DNA of 64,000 nt from an uncultured Lachnospiraceae bacterium (GTDB taxonomy: Bacteria; Bacillota; Clostridia; Lachnospirales; Lachnospiraceae): positions 1 to 64,000 of the forward strand of contig CALWLA010000011.1 of the NCBI GenBank assembly GCA_944381405.1, given 5' to 3'. Positions 3 to 47,747 of this stretch are shown in pieces. Position numbers and translations under genes: made by a program. How positions within the stretch are numbered: position 1 is the stretch's first letter; each line of letters starts with the position of its first letter. The notes under the pieces were generated by a model that was given only the letters and a program-made list of their open reading frames with translations, was not told where the DNA came from and ran no database searches.

Positions 3-44
3 CAGGCGCTTGTAGACGAAGTGCGTTATGGAAAGGGACGGTAA
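3..44 (+). CDS. C-terminal end of an upstream gene, probable antitoxin of the PIN toxin
   Basis: An open frame runs in from the left edge and ends in TAA one base before the PIN-domain gene. Only about 13 C-terminal residues are visible (QALVDEVRYGKGR). Tight coupling to a PIN toxin and a basic, Gly-rich tail would suit an antitoxin such as an AbrB-like or ribbon-helix-helix protein. That is inference from position; the family cannot be read from so short a piece. Confidence 0.4.
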   Translation, partial: QALVDEVRYGKGR

Positions 45-45
45 A

Positions 46-444
46 ATGCGGATATTGGTAGATACAAACATTCTGTTTTCCGCATTGATCTTTCCCCGTT
101 CCAAACCAGCGCAGGCTTTGCTCTACATCGCAGACAATCACGAAATTGTCCTGTGTGACCGCAACATTGCGGAACTGCGGAATATTCTCGGACGGAAAGC
201 GCCAAAGTATCTCCCGGATGCCGAAGTGCTGCTGGCAGAGATGTCGTATGAGTTAATTCCTGCGGTAGACCATGCGGAAAAGCTGATTCGCGACGCAAAA
301 GACCAGCCGATCTTAAACGCAGCCATCGTATCGGATGTGGATATTATCCTCACCGGAGATAAAGATTTTTTAAGTCTGGATATGGAACATCCAAAGTGCA
401 TGACCGTCGCACAATTTCTCGAAAGCGAAGGCGTGAAGGATTAA
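46..444 (+). CDS. PIN-domain ribonuclease toxin (VapC-like, COG1569 type)
   Basis: A 132-residue protein with the PIN fold layout. The first strand carries MRILVDTN with Asp6; Glu43, Asp86 and the TGDKDF segment (Asp105, Asp107) supply the rest of the acidic metal site. PIN toxins of this family are Mg-dependent RNases that cut tRNA or mRNA, usually inhibited by an antitoxin encoded just upstream. The ATG at 46 is preferred over the ATG at 28: it follows the upstream stop by one base and has AAAGGG 8-13 nt before it. A strong hairpin terminator follows. The family is confident; the RNA target is unknown. Confidence 0.8.
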   Translation: MRILVDTNILFSALIFPRSKPAQALLYIADNHEIVLCDRNIAELRNILGRKAPKYLPDAEVLLAEMSYELIPAVDHAEKLIRDAKDQPILNAAIVSDVDIILTGDKDFLSLDMEHPKCMTVAQFLESEGVKD

Positions 445-4014: not shown

Positions 4015-4064
4015 AGATACTGTAAGAAGACTGCTGAAGGATGTCTTCGCGGGAGGTACCGGGT

Positions 4065-4529
4065 TTGATTTTATATCACGGCAGCAAAACGATCGTTAGA
4101 TCTCCTGAAATCAGGATTCAAAAATATAATAAAGATTTCTATTTTGGCTTTTATTGTACTCAATTTCCGGAACAGGCAGTCCGTTGGGCAACCCGGTTTA
4201 ATGGGATCGGTTATTTGAACGAGTATCTTTATACGCCTGATTCCCGTTTAAAGGTCAAGCATTTTCCGGAAATGACGGAAGAGTGGCTGGACTTTATCGC
4301 CGCCTGCCGGACCGGACAGGCCCACGATTATGATATCGTAGAGGGTCCGATGGCCAATGACACGATCTTCAACTATGTACAGGATTTTGTAGACGGTAAG
4401 ATCAGCAGGGAGGCTTTCTGGGCACTGGCAAAATTCAAAAAACCGACTCATCAGATCAGTTTCCATACCGCCCGGGCTCTGACTACATTATCCTTTGTAA
4501 AGGGAAGCGAGGTACGGGATGAAAAATAA
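4065..4529 (+). CDS. DUF3990 protein, ADP-ribosyltransferase-like fold
   Basis: A 154-residue protein that begins LILYHGSK and has DFYFGFYCTQFPEQAVRWA and QISFHTARAL segments, the pattern of DUF3990, a family in the ADP-ribosyltransferase clan. His in YHGS and Tyr in the GFY segment match the NAD-binding strands. A TTG start at 4065 is chosen because GGGAGG lies 8 nt upstream; the ATG at 4041 has AAGG directly against it, with no spacing. The gene overlaps the next one by 11 nt. DUF3990 genes commonly sit beside DUF3791-type genes, and a toxin role is plausible but unproven. No strong neighbour tells its target. Confidence 0.7.
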   Translation: MILYHGSKTIVRSPEIRIQKYNKDFYFGFYCTQFPEQAVRWATRFNGIGYLNEYLYTPDSRLKVKHFPEMTEEWLDFIAACRTGQAHDYDIVEGPMANDTIFNYVQDFVDGKISREAFWALAKFKKPTHQISFHTARALTTLSFVKGSEVRDEK

Positions 4530-4962
4530 CAGCGCTTTGTTCTATACCTGCAGCCTGATCGAATTTATCGGACGGCGTCAAAAGCTGAAACGTTCGGCAT
4601 TGGTCCAAATGATGGGAAAAGCTGCTCTGAAACGCATTTATCAATATGCCGATGTATTCCACTGCGAACCGATCGAAAAAACAGCTGAGGATTTTATCAC
4701 CAGCCTGCATATTCCGGAAGGAAATTTTGACAATGTGGCTGCTTGCCGGTATACCGTACCAGATTACTGGACGATCGGAGAGGTCTACGAGAGACTGATC
4801 GAAGATATTTCCGGAGACGATGAGGAATCCCTCATGGACCGGTTGATGGAGGTCTATACTTCCTGGATCGACGAGGCCATTTCCAATTACAATACAGATT
4901 TTTATTATCAATCCCGAGGCTATATTTTTGCCTGTTACCAGGCAGGACAGGTGCTTGAATGA
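4519..4962 (+). CDS. DUF3791-like protein paired with DUF3990
   Basis: A 147-residue soluble protein. Its first 60 residues (a helix, a basic segment RRQKLKRSALVQMM, then IYQYADVFHCEP) resemble the short DUF3791 proteins usually found beside DUF3990. The remaining 85 residues are acidic and I do not recognise them. It starts 11 nt inside the DUF3990 gene, so translation is probably coupled, and the unit ends at a terminator at 5044. Possible roles are antitoxin or regulator of the ADP-ribosyltransferase-like neighbour; this is inferred from context only. Confidence 0.5.
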   Translation: MKNNSALFYTCSLIEFIGRRQKLKRSALVQMMGKAALKRIYQYADVFHCEPIEKTAEDFITSLHIPEGNFDNVAACRYTVPDYWTIGEVYERLIEDISGDDEESLMDRLMEVYTSWIDEAISNYNTDFYYQSRGYIFACYQAGQVLE

Positions 4963-13492: not shown

Positions 13493-13771
13493 CTATATGT
13501 GCGTTTGGCGATAAATCTCCCTCCGGTGTCCAACCGTAAGGGCCAGGATGATCAGTTCCCGGTCCTCCATCAGGCAGATCAGCCGGTAATCTCCTATCCG
13601 GTATCGCCATTGTCCTTTTCGATCGGAAGTCAGACCCTTGCCATAGAGCCTGGGATCCTCACAGCCTACGAGATGTTTTTGGATCCAGGCTTTGATCATC
13701 TTCTGGGTGTAACGATCGAGCCCTTTAAACTCCTTTTCAAATCGGGAGGTCGTTTCCACTGAATATTTCAT
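13493..13771 (-). CDS. RelE/ParE-superfamily toxin
   Basis: A 92-residue basic protein with the RelE fold pattern: MKYSVETTSRFEKEFKGLD, then QWRYRIGDYRLICL and a C-terminal ILALTVGHRREIY. Members cut mRNA in the ribosome or poison gyrase; the terminal His-Arg-Arg and Tyr favour the RelE mRNA-interferase side, but this is not decisive. The ATG at 13771 overlaps the antitoxin stop as ATGA, so the pair is coupled. A longer frame start at 13789 lies inside the antitoxin and is rejected. Confidence 0.85.
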   Translation of the reverse strand: MKYSVETTSRFEKEFKGLDRYTQKMIKAWIQKHLVGCEDPRLYGKGLTSDRKGQWRYRIGDYRLICLMEDRELIILALTVGHRREIYRQTHI

Positions 13772-13989
13772 AGGTCGAGCTCTTTCCAAAATTCCGAAAC
13801 AGGCCTGCGCTTCTTTCCATCCTTTACATAATCCTCATAGGCCTGATCTGCAATGGTGATATCATATTCCTCTTCTATTTTTTCAAACAACGCCCGTTTA
13901 AACGCTTCCCCTACGGAAATGGAATGTAATTTTGCATAACTGTCCGCCAATTTTTTTTCTTCCTCTGTCAATCTGATCGAAAATGCCAT
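13768..13989 (-). CDS. RelB-type antitoxin (DUF6290-like, ribbon-helix-helix)
   Basis: A 73-residue protein. The N-terminus MAFSIRLTEEEKKLADSYAK is a ribbon-helix-helix DNA-binding start (DUF6290/RelB type), followed by an acidic, flexible tail that would wrap the toxin (DQAYEDYVKDGKKRRPVSEF). GGAGG lies about 8 nt before the ATG. It is upstream of, and overlaps by 4 nt, the RelE-like toxin. The palindrome at 14001-14025 directly upstream is the expected autoregulatory operator. Confidence 0.85.
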   Translation of the reverse strand: MAFSIRLTEEEKKLADSYAKLHSISVGEAFKRALFEKIEEEYDITIADQAYEDYVKDGKKRRPVSEFWKELDL

Positions 13990-16063: not shown

Positions 16064-16504
16064 TTACGTCAGGCATAAAAGCAGCGCAGGCGGCAGAAGA
16101 CAGACCACAAAGGGAATCCGCTTCCGCCTCATATCCCTCCCCCGAAGGGAACCTGCCGCCAGCATGCAGAGGGCCGCTCCGCTGCAGAGCAGAAGCCCCC
16201 CTGCAAACAGCAAAAACAGCTGCCAAAGCTCCAGATAAAAGGCCGCCGTAAGGAAATACAGCGCGTCGCCCGTCCCCAGGCTGCCGCCGCTTAAGCGGCT
16301 GAGGACAAGGAGCGTAAGCCCCGGCAGAAAGCCCTGCAAAAGCGCCCCTGGCTCCAGGGATCGCCTGCAGATACAAAGCACCGCTCCGAGAAACCCAAAG
16401 ATCAAAAAGGTCCTTAGGGAAATGCTCAGATTCCTGAGATCCTGTACCGCCGCCGCCCCTGCAAAAATCAGGAAAAACAGTCTGGCTGCGGCGTCAATCT
16501 CCAT
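16064..16504 (-). CDS. Prepilin peptidase, A24 family (second TadV of the cluster)
   Basis: A 146-residue membrane protein with five or six hydrophobic helices and the two aspartates of type IV prepilin peptidases: AVQDLRNLSIS and GTGDALYFL. It lacks the cytoplasmic methylase domain, as in TadV/CpaA. It would process the pilin-like proteins encoded around it. ATG 16504 is chosen since GGAGG lies 8 nt upstream; the ATG at 16510 would be too close. A second A24 peptidase opens the same operon at 24768. Confidence 0.8.
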   Translation of the reverse strand: MEIDAAARLFFLIFAGAAAVQDLRNLSISLRTFLIFGFLGAVLCICRRSLEPGALLQGFLPGLTLLVLSRLSGGSLGTGDALYFLTAAFYLELWQLFLLFAGGLLLCSGAALCMLAAGSLRGRDMRRKRIPFVVCLLPPALLLCLT

Positions 16505-17537
16505 GATCATGTCCTCCTCCCGAGCAATAGGAGCAGGGGCCTAAATGCCCCGCTTCCTTCAGCTTGATCTCCCGCGCGTAAGCGCCGATGGCTTTACAGT
16601 CCGGACTGCTGTGGTAGGCAGTTCCGCTGGCCATGATATAGACCTGCCCGGAGCCTCCGGGCCTGCAGCTCTTTCATGGGTCGTATCTGCCGCCGGAGCT
16701 GTTCCGCCGGTCCCCGATGGTTTCTGCAGAGACCCGTTGCAGCACATTGTCCAGGTAATGACAATGCCGGTCCTTGTGATAGACCGTGCTGGTCTTCCCC
16801 ACATAGACCACCGGGTCCCCGTCTGCATCCCTGTCAAATCCATCGGAGGTTTCTCCCTCCTCCGCAGGACCGTACTGATCCTTGCCCCGGCCGCCCTCCG
16901 TACCTGTCCAGGCCCGGCGGTTCACCACGGAGCTCATGGGGATGCTGTCTATTCCAAAGATCGAAAAGGGCAGCCTCATATCATATCGGAGCTCCATTTC
17001 GATCATATCGTTCTGCAGGATATTGCATTTTTCAAAATATGGATCGCGGTAAATGTCTCCATCCAGCGAGGCCAGTACCCGGGCCGCCGTAACACCGGTA
17101 TTCAACCCTTCCGCAAAGCCCTCGAAGATCCCCTCTCCCGTTTCTCCTGCCGGCTGAGGCTTCTTGTTCAGGAGTTCTTTTCCGCCGGTTTCCATAAGGC
17201 GTTCCACATAGGCCGCCTGGGCCATATCCTTTGCCGCAGCCTCCATCACGTTCTGCAGCTGCCTGCGTTCATCCAGTAGCTTCAGGGGCGCCAGAAGCAT
17301 CAGCGCCGTAAACAGAAACACCGGCAGGCACAGGGCAGCCTCCACCGTCAGACTGGCAGGGGCCCGGATATGAAGTTTTTGGGACTGCAGGCATGCCTTT
17401 TTTCTGGAGCGCGGAGCTTTTTTGCCGGATCCGGTTTGTGCCTGGAGAGCAGTTTTCCTGATATCGCCGCAAAAATTATTCGTCATACGAGGTTTGGATG
17501 CCTTATTCTGTTTTCTGAAAAATTCGATCTTGTTCAT
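16494..17537 (-). CDS. Pseudopilin-like protein with in-frame TGA: candidate selenoprotein or nonsense mutant
   Basis: Read to the first stop (16674) the product has 287 residues: basic leader, APASLTVEAALCLPVFLF membrane segment (about 58-85), soluble domain, and a Cys/His module with VYVGKTSTVYHKDRHC ending GGRYDP. Codon 288 is TGA (16676-16674). The same frame continues as KSCRPGGSGQ, then VYIMASGTAYHSSPDC and PCSYC, a second copy of the module, and stops at 16494, 11 nt inside the next gene. In copy 2 the motif is P-C-x-x-C; in copy 1 it reads P-(TGA)-K-S-C. Ending at 16674 would leave the only long gap (169 nt) in this packed operon. A mutated Cys codon is the plain alternative. Confidence 0.6.
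16646..16662 (-). other. Hairpin 3' of the in-frame TGA, SECIS-like
   Basis: On the minus strand GCCCGGA (16662-16656), loop GGC, TCCGGGC (16652-16646): 7 perfect pairs starting 11 nt after the TGA, so the loop begins 18 nt after it. Bacterial SECIS elements usually have a short loop with a G among its first two bases, 16-37 nt after the UGA. The fit is good, but such a hairpin can arise by chance in GC-rich Pro/Gly codons. Confidence 0.35.
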
Positions 17538-17576: not shown

Positions 17577-19541
17577 TCAGTAGCTGAAGTAGGTTTCCGT
17601 CCTGATCGCATACAGCTTTTCCAAAGGCCAAAGATTTCCGAGCATCCCCAATGAGGCAAGCACATGCTTTGTTTTTGCCTCTGCTCCCATCCGCATGGAA
17701 TAAATGCAGCGTGTCAGAAGAAAATCCTGCTGTCCGCTTTTTACATTCATCTGTATCATATCCATCATGCGATAATCATACAGAGAAGACTGACCATAAA
17801 ATAATAAGATGCGCAGATATTCCCGATAGGAAAAGCCCTCCTGGCCTCCGCCCTCCGGAAGCACGCCGTTGCTGCTGCCAATGCTCAAAAGCCCCTCCAG
17901 GGTCAGATAAAAGCTTTGGCGGCTGTGGAGAAAAGGAACTTCCTTTCCTCCCAGCAGATCCCGGACATCGCAAAGGGCCTGTCCCAGGGCCCATACCCCC
18001 AGGATGAAAAAGGTCATCACCGCGATCAGGGGCGTAAAGCCAGCTACGCCGGTGATCACAGCCGCCAGAGCCCTGGCCTCGCTGCGCTTTTCCGTATCGG
18101 TAAACAGATAGATCAGATTGAGTCCCTCCCGCATCGCCAAAAGACTCATGACCGTATCGGAAAGATTTTCATAATCATTCTCCTTTCCATTCAGGATGTA
18201 TTCGATCTCCATGTGGCCGCTGCCCCGTGTCTCCGGCCGCTTTCCATAGCGGTCCCGGCCAAAATAGTGGAAGCTCTGGAGGCCGTATTCCCCCATCAGC
18301 ACCCGCTCCGTAAGGGACAGGCGGCAGCCATTCGTTCCGGAAAAGGCCGTGGCGGAGGGGGCGTCGGAAAGCTCCAGCTGATCCTTTGACACGCTGACTC
18401 CTTCCGGCAGCAGCAGCTCCAGCACATGCCCCTTCAAAAGGGCTGATACCTGTTCCAGAAACCCTTCCTTTTCCTTGTCCGCAACGCCGTGGGCCGCAGA
18501 AAGCTGCAGCAGCTCATATTCCAGAAAATGCCGCCGTACCGGCGCCCATACCGCCTCCTCGTCCAACTCGTCGTCTTCATCCGCAGGCTCCCAGCTGGCA
18601 ATATATGCCTCTGCCGCCTCCGCTTCCGCTATCACGGAATCCAGAAACGCTGCGTTTGCCTCTGCCTTTTCCGGCAGCGCCGCGATCTGCTGCCTGCGGG
18701 CTCCGTCCTCGTTGACGTAGGATTCATATTCCCGGATGTCGCTTTCCATGGCCCCTCTTACCGCCTCGGACAGGGATTCCTTTTCCGCCTCGTACCGCTG
18801 CCGGGATTCCCCAAGGGCCTGCGCCAGCCGGTCCGCCTGTTCCTCATAGGCCTGCACCAGCTTTGGCACCTGCCGCAGCGCCTCCTGCATCCGCTGCATA
18901 TAATGGATAAAACTGCCGCCGGAAAGCCGCTCCACCGCAGCCAGCGCGCTTTCATAGTGCTCCTTCTGCTCCGTCAGGGCCTGGTTCAGATCCTCGATGG
19001 CTTTTTCCAGCCGGACCGCTTCCTTTGTATGGTCCTCGTACAGATCCGACACCCGGTCCAATGCCCCGGCCTCGCCGATGTCCGCCAGCATCTTGACCGC
19101 GGTCCCGTAGTCCCAGAGGGATTCGAAGATCCCGTATTTCATATAGTCCAGGACCTCCCGTTCAAAAAGCTCTCCGTCAAGCTCCGTCAAAAGCAGCCGG
19201 TCCTCCACCGTGATCTCCCCCAGTTCCTCCGGGTACCAGTCGGAGGCCCCCAGATAAGGCGACAGGAACCGTTCCATCTCGTCGCAGAGCTGCTGCTCCT
19301 CGTAATGCTCCAGGCCCAGCAGGCGGTAATCCTCCCAAAGCTTCCTGTGATACTGGGAAAACAGGGAGTCCATGGCGGAATTCACCGCCTGGGTAAAATA
19401 CAGTCTGGCGCCCTGGGTGCGGGCAGATTCCAGGATCCCCAGCAGCAGGGCAAAGACCAGACACAGGGTCAGGGCGAAAAAGACGGTGATCTGTCCTGCC
19501 GCCGCCGGGGCTGCGGTCTTCCTTCCCCTTTTTTCACTCAT
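17577..19541 (-). CDS. DUF5702 protein of the Tad-like cluster (TadG-like)
   Basis: A 654-residue protein with an N-terminal membrane segment ITVFFALTLCLVFALLLGILE (about 18-38) preceded by a basic stretch, long helical coiled regions at about 185-300, and a second hydrophobic stretch near 515. The Gly-Gln-Ile-Thr-Val-Phe-Phe-Ala start is typical of DUF5702 proteins in clostridial Tad clusters, thought to play the TadG role (pilus assembly or anchoring outside the membrane). It begins 2 nt after the Flp1-like gene. A biochemical activity is not known to me. Confidence 0.75.
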   Translation of the reverse strand: MSEKRGRKTAAPAAAGQITVFFALTLCLVFALLLGILESARTQGARLYFTQAVNSAMDSLFSQYHRKLWEDYRLLGLEHYEEQQLCDEMERFLSPYLGASDWYPEELGEITVEDRLLLTELDGELFEREVLDYMKYGIFESLWDYGTAVKMLADIGEAGALDRVSDLYEDHTKEAVRLEKAIEDLNQALTEQKEHYESALAAVERLSGGSFIHYMQRMQEALRQVPKLVQAYEEQADRLAQALGESRQRYEAEKESLSEAVRGAMESDIREYESYVNEDGARRQQIAALPEKAEANAAFLDSVIAEAEAAEAYIASWEPADEDDELDEEAVWAPVRRHFLEYELLQLSAAHGVADKEKEGFLEQVSALLKGHVLELLLPEGVSVSKDQLELSDAPSATAFSGTNGCRLSLTERVLMGEYGLQSFHYFGRDRYGKRPETRGSGHMEIEYILNGKENDYENLSDTVMSLLAMREGLNLIYLFTDTEKRSEARALAAVITGVAGFTPLIAVMTFFILGVWALGQALCDVRDLLGGKEVPFLHSRQSFYLTLEGLLSIGSSNGVLPEGGGQEGFSYREYLRILLFYGQSSLYDYRMMDMIQMNVKSGQQDFLLTRCIYSMRMGAEAKTKHVLASLGMLGNLWPLEKLYAIRTETYFSY

Positions 19542-19543
19542 GC

Positions 19544-19810
19544 CTAATAAACGCTTTCCGAAAGGGTGTCGATCTGCTTGAAGATGTCCGTCAGAAGCTC
19601 GTTGATCTGCTCCTTGAAAATGATCACAAGTCCGATCAGCACCACCAGGATCAAAACGATCTCGATCACTCCGATACCATCCTCCTCAGAAAAAAGCGCC
19701 TTGAAAAGCCGCCTGATATACTCCCAGAAGGAGGGCTTCCGTCCCTTGAAAAATCCTGCGGTTCCCGCCGTCAGCCGGAATCCGCCGTTCCTTTGCAGCA
19801 TGCCTTCCAT
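19544..19810 (-). CDS. Flp1-like type IVb pilin
   Basis: An 88-residue prepilin: a long basic leader, EEDGIGVIEIVLILVVLIGLVIIF with the processing site and Glu at mature position 5 or so, then a short helical tail. This is the Flp1-like family, the main fibre subunit of clostridial Tad pili. GGAGG lies 8 nt upstream of the ATG. It sits between the TadC platform gene and DUF5702. Cleavage probably falls after a Gly in DGIG; the exact bond is uncertain. Confidence 0.85.
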   Translation of the reverse strand: MEGMLQRNGGFRLTAGTAGFFKGRKPSFWEYIRRLFKALFSEEDGIGVIEIVLILVVLIGLVIIFKEQINELLTDIFKQIDTLSESVY

Positions 19811-21196: not shown

Positions 21197-22054
21197 CTAT
21201 ACCCGGATGTCCATGATCCTTTCCGACAGGACGCAGGCGCCGATATAGGCTGCCAGGCACACCGTCATGATGCACCTGCCCAGAAGGGTCTGATACATCA
21301 CATCGAAAAATCCGCTGCTGCTGAGTTCCACATACAGGATGATTCCAAAGGGCATAAAGTTCATGATCCGCTGCTCAAACCGTCTGGCCGCCGTCAGGTT
21401 GTTGATCTCCTCCATCACCGACAGCTTTTCCCGGATCACCGTCACCGTATGGTCGATGATGGAGCAAAGCTCCCCGCCGCTGCGTTTTGCGATGGAAAAC
21501 ACCTCCGTAAAATTCCGGATGTCCTCTATGCCGCTGCGCTCCGACAGCTCCAGAAGCAATGCCTCCACAGGCTTATGCAGCCGCAGCTGTCCGCTGATAT
21601 ACAGAAATTCCTCTGTGATCATGGCCTTTTTCCCATAAAGATTTTCCAGCTCCCGCTCCGTGGCAAAAAAAGCGTTTTCCACGGAATAGCCTGCTCCTAA
21701 AAAGGAGCTCAGGATCCCCGCCGCCTCCTTGAACTGTAGTGTCAACCTCCACTGGCGTTTTTTCAGGAGGGCCTTTCTCCGGTAAAGCGGCAGGCCGATC
21801 AGGCCAAAGGGCAGCAGAAACAGAAACAAGGAGAAGCTGTGGTAAAAGGTATAGGCCACGAGCCCTGCCAGAGCTGCGCCCATGGCGCCGTTGGCCGCCC
21901 ATTCCGACGCCGACAGCCGGTAACGCCGGTAATCAGTCCGCGAGCCTCTGGCCCGCCCGAAGCAGTTTTTCCCGGTTGTCGAGGCTGCCTGTTTTTTTAA
22001 GCCGTTTTTCCGCCGCATCAAATGCAAACAAGGGCGTAAGCTGAAATCCTTCAT
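21197..22054 (-). CDS. TadB-like platform protein (type II secretion F domain)
   Basis: A 285-residue frame with two membrane helices near 55-95, a cytoplasmic T2SSF domain (LQFKEAAGILSSFLGAGYSVENAF, about 105-240) and a C-terminal helix pair. The conserved part starts near [12 protein letters not shown] (about residue 41). The start is uncertain: ATG 22054 has AGAGGA 7 nt upstream but implies a 122-nt overlap with the ATPase gene; ATG 22018 has a weaker site. No start codon lies near the conserved beginning. Confidence 0.7.
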   Translation of the reverse strand: MKDFSLRPCLHLMRRKNGLKKQAASTTGKNCFGRARGSRTDYRRYRLSASEWAANGAMGAALAGLVAYTFYHSFSLFLFLLPFGLIGLPLYRRKALLKKRQWRLTLQFKEAAGILSSFLGAGYSVENAFFATERELENLYGKKAMITEEFLYISGQLRLHKPVEALLLELSERSGIEDIRNFTEVFSIAKRSGGELCSIIDHTVTVIREKLSVMEEINNLTAARRFEQRIMNFMPFGIILYVELSSSGFFDVMYQTLLGRCIMTVCLAAYIGACVLSERIMDIRV

Positions 22055-23195
22055 TCCCGTATCCTCTTATCTCCGAAATCTCCAGGACCCGCCGGGACCG
22101 GTCAGAGAGCCTACCCAGATGTACCAGCAGATCCAGGGCCGAAGCGATCTGGCTGCGGATCGCCGGAACCGGCAGAGATGCTCCCATCAGCACCATGGCC
22201 TCCAACCGGTGCAGCATGTCCGCCGCAGAGTTTCCGTGACCTGTGGAAAGGCTGCCGTCGTGGCCCGTATTCATGGCCTGCAGCATATCCATCGCTTCTC
22301 CGCCCCGCACCTCTCCCACAACGATCCTGTCGGGATTCATCCGGAGGCTCGCCTTGATCAGCGCCGACATGGTGATGGCCCCCTCTCCCTCGGAGTTGGG
22401 ATTTCTGGTTTCCAGGCGGACCAGGTTTGGAATGTGCCTTAGCTGTAGCTCCGCAGAATCCTCGATGGTGATCACCCGTTCCTCCCTGGGAATAAAATCA
22501 GACAGGGCGTTCAGAAAGGTGGTCTTTCCGGAGCTGGTGCCTCCGGAAATGAAGATGTTGTAGCCGGAGCGCACCAGCACCTTCAGATAGTCCGCCGCCT
22601 CCTCCGTAAGGGTCCCCAGGGCGATCATCTTTTCCATGCCCAGAGGCTCCGGAAACTTTCGTATGGTAAGCACCGGGCCGCAGAGGGAAGCCGGCGGCAG
22701 CACGATATGGACCCGGGAGCCGTCGGGAAGCCTGGCGTCCGCGATGGGGGAGGCGGTGTTGACGCTGCGGTTGACGCCGCTGACGATCTGCTGAATCAGA
22801 TCCTCCAGCTGCTCCTCTGATTCAAACTGCCGGTCCCAGCGCGCCACGCCTCCGCCCCGTTCCAGAAACACCGACTCCGGCCCGTTCACCATGATCTCAT
22901 TCACCGAGGGATCCTCCAAAAGCTCCTGCAGGATGCCAAATCTCCGGAAGGAATTGAACAGATTCCGGTGAAGCCGCGTCCTCTCACTCAGGCTGAACCG
23001 CTCCGCCTCCCGCAGGATCTCCTCATCGATCCGCCGCCGCAGGGCCTGATCCGTCAGAAGCCCTGCATCCCCCTGCTCCTCCAGGATCCTCTGCCGGAGC
23101 CGTTGTTCCGCCGCCGCAAGCCGCGCCTCCTGCCGTTCCCCTTCCGGTGGCTCCCTTTCCTGCAGCTTTCCCGGCCGCTGTCCGTTTCTCAGCAT
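21933..23195 (-). CDS. CpaF/TadA-family pilus assembly ATPase
   Basis: A 420-residue ATPase of the type II/IV secretion (GspE/VirB11) class. Walker A is [10 protein letters not shown] (about 220-229); an Asp box ([10 protein letters not shown]), Walker B region ([12 protein letters not shown]) and His box ([13 protein letters not shown]) follow. The first 90 residues are helical and charged. It powers pilus assembly at the platform formed by the two T2SSF proteins. AGGTGG lies upstream of the ATG. It overlaps the TadZ-like gene by 7 nt. Confidence 0.93.
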
Positions 23196-46433: not shown

Positions 46434-47747
46434 TTAGCCTGCCAACCGGTATCGGGTATTTTTCCCTTTACCCTCCCGGATGATCTGACCGCGGTCCATC
46501 ATCCGCTTTAACAGACGACCACAGCTGGTCTGGCTAAGCCCCAAACATTGCTCCGCTTCCTTTCTTGTAAAGGTTTTCTTTTTCTGGGCCAGCTTTTCCA
46601 CCTTACTTTCCTCGCTGTCGTTTTCTTCTGAAAGCACAGATTCACCCTCTTGATCCCTTGAAATATTCAGATTGGGCAAGGTTATCTTAAAGGCATTGTC
46701 CGATATTTCTATCAAAGGTTTCCTTCCGGTTCCGTCATAGGCCTCCATGATCTTCCTGATTCCGGTTCCATAGGCTTCGATCAGTTCCAGACGGTAAAAT
46801 ACATTTGCCAATTTTTCATTTCTACAGACAGAAACACCCATCATAACATCTTTCAGCGTTATCCCGTTTACCAGACCTCCAATGGATGTAAACTCGATTC
46901 GATCGGCAAAAATGCTGATCAGAGAGCTGGCTCGAAATGCGTACTCACGGTGTACCAGCAGATTTAAAAGCGCCTCTCTGACTGCTGCTTCCGGATAATC
47001 CCTTTGATCGATCCGGCGTAGCTTCTGGAAGGTAGAATGAATCTGATTTCGAAAATCGATATAATCATAAACCTCTTCCATCTGCTTAAACAACGATCCT
47101 GAAAATTCCTTCCGGTCTTTGAATTCATTTTGAGCTGTTCCTTCAAAAACCGCTGCTTTTATCGTATGCACGCACTGATCCGATAACAGCAAACCTAAAT
47201 TTGTATAGAGACCATCCTGGGTTACAAGGCCAAGGGTTTTCATTTGGGACGGTCCAAAGGGAATATTTCGCTCAGAAAATTCCTTTTCCGCAGTTTTAAA
47301 GGTCAGATCTTGTTCCAGAGAACGCATTTCCTCAAAATGATCCCCATCTGTTTCCTTGATCATACGCCTGATTGCTGTATTGGTAGCCGGAACAGAAGAA
47401 TATCCCTGTCTTACATATACGCCCTCCGGGCGAAGACCTTTTTTTGCAATATAATAAGGGCGTTCCGTACCTTGCTGGATATCCACAGCGACGATCTTTT
47501 TTCCATCCTCCTGCAATGTTTCATAATGTAAAAACATTGTCAGATCCGGCCTGACCGCATCCCGGACCATATTGCTGATCTGTAAGGCAGCACCATCCGG
47601 ATCTGCAAGACCGATCACTGATCCGTCATCTTGCACGCCAATATATAGCCGTCCACCTTCACCATTTGCAAAGGCCACAACTTCTTTTTTTATCTCTTCT
47701 GTTACAGTTGCCTTTAATTCAATGGTTTCGCTCTCCTGAAAAATCAC
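46434..47747 (-). CDS. AlbA_2 (Schlafen-type) ATP-binding regulator with winged helix
   Basis: A 437-residue protein. An AlbA_2 domain covers about 1-130 (ETIELKATVTEEIKKEVVAFANGEGG), a HATPase_c_4 domain with AVREALLNLLVHREY about 240-340, and a C-terminal winged helix about 375-437 (FTRKEAEQCLGLSQTSCGRL). These proteins are annotated as transcriptional regulators; the activity is not established. The start is GTG with AAGGAGGGG upstream. It lies between ktrB- and ktrA-like genes and looks inserted. Tandem repeats overlap its promoter. Confidence 0.8.
   Translation of the reverse strand: MIFQESETIELKATVTEEIKKEVVAFANGEGGRLYIGVQDDGSVIGLADPDGAALQISNMVRDAVRPDLTMFLHYETLQEDGKKIVAVDIQQGTERPYYIAKKGLRPEGVYVRQGYSSVPATNTAIRRMIKETDGDHFEEMRSLEQDLTFKTAEKEFSERNIPFGPSQMKTLGLVTQDGLYTNLGLLLSDQCVHTIKAAVFEGTAQNEFKDRKEFSGSLFKQMEEVYDYIDFRNQIHSTFQKLRRIDQRDYPEAAVREALLNLLVHREYAFRASSLISIFADRIEFTSIGGLVNGITLKDVMMGVSVCRNEKLANVFYRLELIEAYGTGIRKIMEAYDGTGRKPLIEISDNAFKITLPNLNISRDQEGESVLSEENDSEESKVEKLAQKKKTFTRKEAEQCLGLSQTSCGRLLKRMMDRGQIIREGKGKNTRYRLAG

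Follow-up and report, generated by a model that had tools for sequence, protein, structure and literature searches.

A Tad pilus cluster of an uncultured Lachnospiraceae bacterium includes a predicted minor pseudopilin gene with an in-frame TGA at codon 288, and the question is whether this codon ends the protein or is decoded as selenocysteine (Sec). The gene lies in the window, by which we mean the whole stretch of 64,000 nucleotides that was analysed, and the features discussed here are collected in Table 1. On the reverse strand, 16494-17537 reads as 287 codons, a TGA (16676-16674), 59 further codons and a terminal TGA, which confirms what an earlier note made from the letters of this DNA had described. 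The frame is open on both sides of the internal TGA, has no frameshift and no further internal stop, and homologs align with it over the full length. Stopping at the TGA leaves a gap of 169 nt before the second in-frame ATG (16504) of the prepilin peptidase gene, while the extended frame overlaps that gene by 11 nt from this ATG, or by 17 nt from the first ATG (16510); the 169-nt gap and the 11-nt overlap given in the earlier note were thus upheld.

The N-terminus of the pseudopilin, SLTVEAALCLPVF, is a pilin-type helix, and the protein scored 15.1 bits against the Tad family PF13400 in Pfam, where the cut-off is 22.3 bits. Its cluster also encodes a CpaF-type ATPase, TadB/TadC (assigned from position and ORF content), a Flp1-like pilin, a DUF5702 TadG-like protein, an A24-like prepilin peptidase and an FHA protein. 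CpaF, TadB/C, Flp and the prepilin peptidase all stand alongside the pseudopilin gene, and it is the predicted TadA/CpaF-type ATPase that identifies the cluster as Tad. A gene for a ParE/RelE-like toxin (window 13493-13789, reverse strand; PF05016, E 6e-14) lies between carB and this cluster. Elsewhere in the window, a PIN-domain protein is encoded at the window edge (28-444, forward strand; PF13470, E 9e-14), and a DUF3990 gene (4041-4962, forward strand; PF13151, E 1.8e-50) overlaps a small gene without a Pfam match, so that the pair looks like a two-gene unit. A Schlafen AlbA_2 / RecG-C-like protein with an AbiEi_4-like C-terminus (46434-47747, reverse strand) is a possible regulator.

Table 1. 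Positions in the window of the pseudopilin gene, its parts and its Tad-cluster neighbours.
Feature	Position	Strand	Details
Prepilin peptidase (A24-like), overlaps the end of the extended frame	16064..16510	-	PF01478, E 2.3e-4, under the Pfam cut-off
Tad-cluster TadE/G-like minor pseudopilin gene, TGA read through	16494..17537	-	347 residues, residue 288 = Sec or Cys
Module 2, encoded 3' of the TGA	16524..16649	-	H309-x4-C314 ... C335-x2-C338
Candidate bSECIS hairpin	16646..16662	-	stem GCCCGGA/UCCGGGC around GGC (A-GGC-U loop)
Module 1, Ada-like HCCC metal-site signature	16665..16808	-	H254-x4-C259 ... U288-x2-C291
In-frame TGA, codon 288, candidate Sec codon replacing an invariant Cys	16674..16676	-	
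DUF5702 / TadG-like gene, upstream of the pseudopilin gene	17577..19541	-	PF18960, E 2.2e-74
Flp1-like major pilin	19544..19810	-	PF16982, E 2.1e-20
TadA/CpaF-type ATPase	21933..23195	-	PF00437, E 7e-57

The earlier note had seen a second copy of the preceding module after the TGA, and had placed the TGA at the first Cys of a C-x-x-C motif. Both copies bear this out: copy 1 (VVYVGKTSTVYHKDRHCHYL...RYDP[TGA]KSC) and copy 2 (VYIMASGTAYHSSPDC...GPCSYC) are one module twice. The positions H254, C259, C288, C291, H309, C314, C335 and C338 are invariant in the 35-homolog alignment, where the column of the TGA is Cys in 34/34 other homologs aligned with the window gene, and the TGA occupies the third ligand-like position of the H-x4-C...C-x2-C set of module 1. 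Every Cys-type homolog read (>90 distinct sequences) has TGC or TGT at codon 288. The distribution of stops argues against chance: among the homologs read residue by residue, internal stops are present only in the window gene, in a homolog from another genome, G269 (TGA, same column), and in one from G054 (TAG, elsewhere). The family search had suggested a TGA in six other homologs (G256, G027, G172, G260, G280 and G394), but these were rejected because all their stops are terminal. In the earlier note, Cys codons in all close relatives had counted against Sec, and the alignment did find Cys in all genus mates, including all five that are selA-positive. However, selenoprotein families normally have Cys homologs, and Cys in the genus mates therefore does not refute Sec.

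The selA, selB, selD and tRNA-Sec genes, for which the earlier note had proposed a search, are all present in the window genome. Its selD has an internal TGA in the customary position, and TGA also occurs within grdA and grdB (glycine reductase). Thus, the window genome is equipped for Sec and other genes in it rely on Sec. The Sec locus (G000:C1, about 36-54 kb) holds selA, selB, tRNA-Sec and the TGA-containing selD and glycine reductase genes, together with a cysteine-desulfurase-like gene and a YedE-like gene. A selA hit above the cut-off was found in 6/25 genus genomes and 62/397 family genomes. The Sec trait is patchy across genus and family, and it looks to have been lost or gained within the genus. 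The six selA-positive genomes of the genus carry the closest homologs of the pseudopilin gene.

The published limits for a bSECIS element are a loop of 3-9 nt with G in the first two loop positions, a distance of 16-37 nt from the TGA and an MFE of at most -7.5 kcal/mol (PMC13188914). A search 3' of codon 288, also proposed in the earlier note, found a hairpin of this type: its loop starts 17-18 nt 3' of the TGA, its local MFE is -15.4 kcal/mol, and it satisfies the published model. It equals the hairpin of grdB in the same genome in its 12-nt spacer, 6-bp core stem and GGC loop, and it is stronger than in 94/94 Cys homologs. No SECIS-type hairpin is present in G017 and G011, the nearest of the Cys homologs. 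The model is also passed by 17/94 Cys homologs (18%), and when the peptide was recoded at random with synonymous codons in a simulation, ~17% of the versions formed such a hairpin, because the Pro-Gly-Gly-Ser-Gly codons are self-complementary. Moreover, grdA, a true selenoprotein gene, fails the model as implemented here. Since grdA fails and 17 Cys homologs pass, the test lacks full sensitivity and specificity, and the criterion discriminates weakly. Given the simulation and the background in Cys homologs, we rejected the hairpin as stand-alone proof; as evidence for Sec it is suggestive. One Cys homolog from a selA-negative genome (G014:C52) has a SECIS-like hairpin, UCCCGG-AGGCA-CCGGGA, which is either chance or the remnant of a lost Sec codon.

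Contigs of ~85,000 species were scanned with an exact degenerate pattern for this stretch, allowing TAA, TAG, TGA or TGG at codon 288. The one match in Lachnospiraceae was UBA9414 (G269). With TGN at codon 288 the pattern matches 288/397 family genomes, so it reaches roughly three quarters of the family, and within this reach no TAA, TAG or TGG at codon 288 was found in the family. Four further matches (Streptococcus, Methylophaga, Ectothiorhodospiraceae and Torokbacteria) were attributed to chance on account of their taxa, and a search of a plasmid collection returned no match. G269 belongs to a different genus; its homolog (G269:C31, 202-930) has the TGA in the same column and a matching cluster order, and the genome has selA, selB, selD (with TGA) and tRNA-Sec, in a family where only 62/397 genomes have selA. 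Its hairpin, CUGCC-GGGCA-GGCAG, has the loop 18 nt after the TGA and an MFE of -8.6 kcal/mol, and passes the bSECIS model weakly. The G269 protein reads P-U-x-C and not U-x-x-C, while its nearest relatives read C-x-x-C; one in-frame 3-nt deletion across a codon boundary could be the source of its TGA. The G269 case is supporting, not clean, evidence for Sec.

We consider that codon 288 of the pseudopilin gene is probably decoded as Sec, which is the best explanation and is favoured rather than proven. The Sec reading is preferred because it explains all observations with one assumption, whereas a nonsense mutation needs a young event plus coincidences. The earlier note had left Sec insertion and a recent nonsense mutation side by side. 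Its Sec side has gained from the machinery, the hairpin and the second Sec-using genus, and is weakened by the background of hairpins and by the U-x-C spacing in G269.

The strongest competitor is a nonsense mutation (TGY to TGA) of very recent date, which would cut the pseudopilin at 287 residues, the 3' part not yet having had time to decay. One base change would be enough for it, and all nearest relatives have Cys. The two residues preceding the TGA have also changed (286-287 are DP in the window gene and HA in G017 and G011), so the site differs at more than one residue, which also weighs against Sec. Plain nonsense mutations or errors do occur in the pseudopilin gene: the G054:C23 homolog, from a genome that is not among the selA-positive ones, has an in-frame TAG in module 2, to be put down to a common nonsense mutation or to a fault in the assembly. 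The codons 3' of the TGA argue against a nonsense mutation at codon 288. Compared with G017, the window gene has 81% identity in module 2 (dN/dS about 0.09, dS about 1.4) and 68% in module 1, which is the less conserved of the two. Module 2 of the window gene and of G017 are equally identical to that of G011 (62% each), and therefore the window lineage is not accelerated. These values indicate that the stretch after the TGA is under purifying selection, and if the TGA were a true stop, it would have to be young relative to the split from G017. It would also have fallen by coincidence on an invariant Cys, in a Sec-using genome, ahead of a hairpin of SECIS geometry, and on the same codon as in a second Sec-using genus. 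We therefore regard a recent nonsense mutation as unlikely.

An assembly or base-calling error, with Cys as the true codon, is less probable still. One wrong base would be enough, and the source genome is a draft of 41 contigs; yet the gene has no frameshift or other stop, the genome has a completeness of 99.36% and a contamination of 0.43%, and an error would leave both the hairpin and the second genus unexplained. Insertion of an amino acid other than Sec at the TGA (Trp, or through a near-cognate tRNA), or an altered code, would explain the conserved downstream frame but is very improbable, since the same frame ends in TGA, which thus serves as a stop in this genome, and a complete Sec system is present.

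If codon 288 is decoded as Sec, SelB carrying Sec-tRNA would bind the hairpin when the ribosome arrives at UGA288, leading to insertion of Sec. When selenium or SelB is short, synthesis would stop at 287 residues, and half of the first metal site and module 2 would be lost. Each extracytoplasmic module might bind a metal, zinc being the probable one, or carry a redox-active thiolate cluster, to judge from the signature and the weak similarity to Ada. Sec288 would then replace one of the four ligand-like residues in module 1, where it could serve as a ligand to the metal or supply a selenolate of higher reactivity. On the pilus, we guess, the modules have a structural or redox role.

No pilin or TadE family appears in a 2026 review of prokaryotic selenoproteins (PMC13188914), and NCBIfam has no family for the window protein or for its G017 and G269 homologs. 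Thus, if the Sec reading is true, these proteins would be a new selenoprotein family. Literature searches for a pilin or Tad selenoprotein brought up no relevant paper, and we know of no earlier selenium-containing pilus protein. Known bacterial selenoproteins are mostly redox enzymes, with some for metal or metalloid handling; the Sec reading, if true, would widen the use of Sec to a surface pilus component, at an apparent metal-ligand position, and such pilins would be cut short by gene callers. Beyond the decoding of the codon, it is conceivable, though rather doubtful, that there is a new family of extracellular-pilus selenoproteins with Sec at a ligand position of an Ada-like metal or redox module, in which selenium sets whether the pilin is full or short and so couples pilus chemistry to selenium in Sec-using Lachnospiraceae.

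In the AlphaFold2 model of the pseudopilin, the N-terminal part is confidently predicted and pilin-like, with a long helix (65-117) and strands at 163-208, and there are two small modules; the C-terminal part modelled alone had a mean pLDDT of 83.7. In a fold search, the N-terminal part had weak Z scores to the pilins 6qvf and 3cfi, tied with unrelated folds. Foldseek alone gave nothing for either structure model. Searching PDB sequences with the full and the C-terminal alignment yielded no credible match, and a single-module profile against the PDB matched only repeat artefacts from designed Pizza proteins, which were discarded. The single structure match of the modules with a VIA Z of at least 2 was N-Ada (1u8b; Z 3.3, rmsd 2.7, 45 residues), and the Ada zinc-binding family in Pfam, PF02805, matched weakly in 2/44 members (best E 0.0029).

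In the Ada domain, zinc is bound by four Cys. The modules resemble its N-terminal zinc domain (PF02805; 1u8b) in a four-ligand layout ending in C-x2-C, and by this analogy they may work like the Ada domain. The reading of U-x-x-C in module 1 as a redox motif, which the earlier note had put forward, fits less well than that note held, as the conserved H-C-C-C set looks more like the Ada metal site. However, the Ada domain has C-x3-C ... C-x2-C, starting with Cys, whereas the pseudopilin modules have H-x4-C ... C-x2-C, in tandem and on a pilin. Given His as the first ligand-like residue and the different spacing, we did not class them as an Ada domain. The Cys-type homologs (for example G017, 67% identity) share the pilin-type helix, the two H-x4-C...C-x2-C modules and the orthologous position; they differ in having TGC or TGT at codon 288 and, in the closest two, in lacking the hairpin. 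GrdB belongs to a family in which Sec has been experimentally verified. In the same genome as the pseudopilin, it likewise has its TGA in a U-x-x-C motif, followed by a hairpin of the same geometry, although it is a cytoplasmic enzyme unrelated to the pseudopilin. Finally, an FmdB-family selenoprotein with U-x-x-U is in the selenoprotein list of the 2026 review (PMC13188914). It is of another family, has two Sec residues and is no pilus component, but it offers a precedent for Sec at the C-x-x-C positions of a small, presumably zinc-binding protein.
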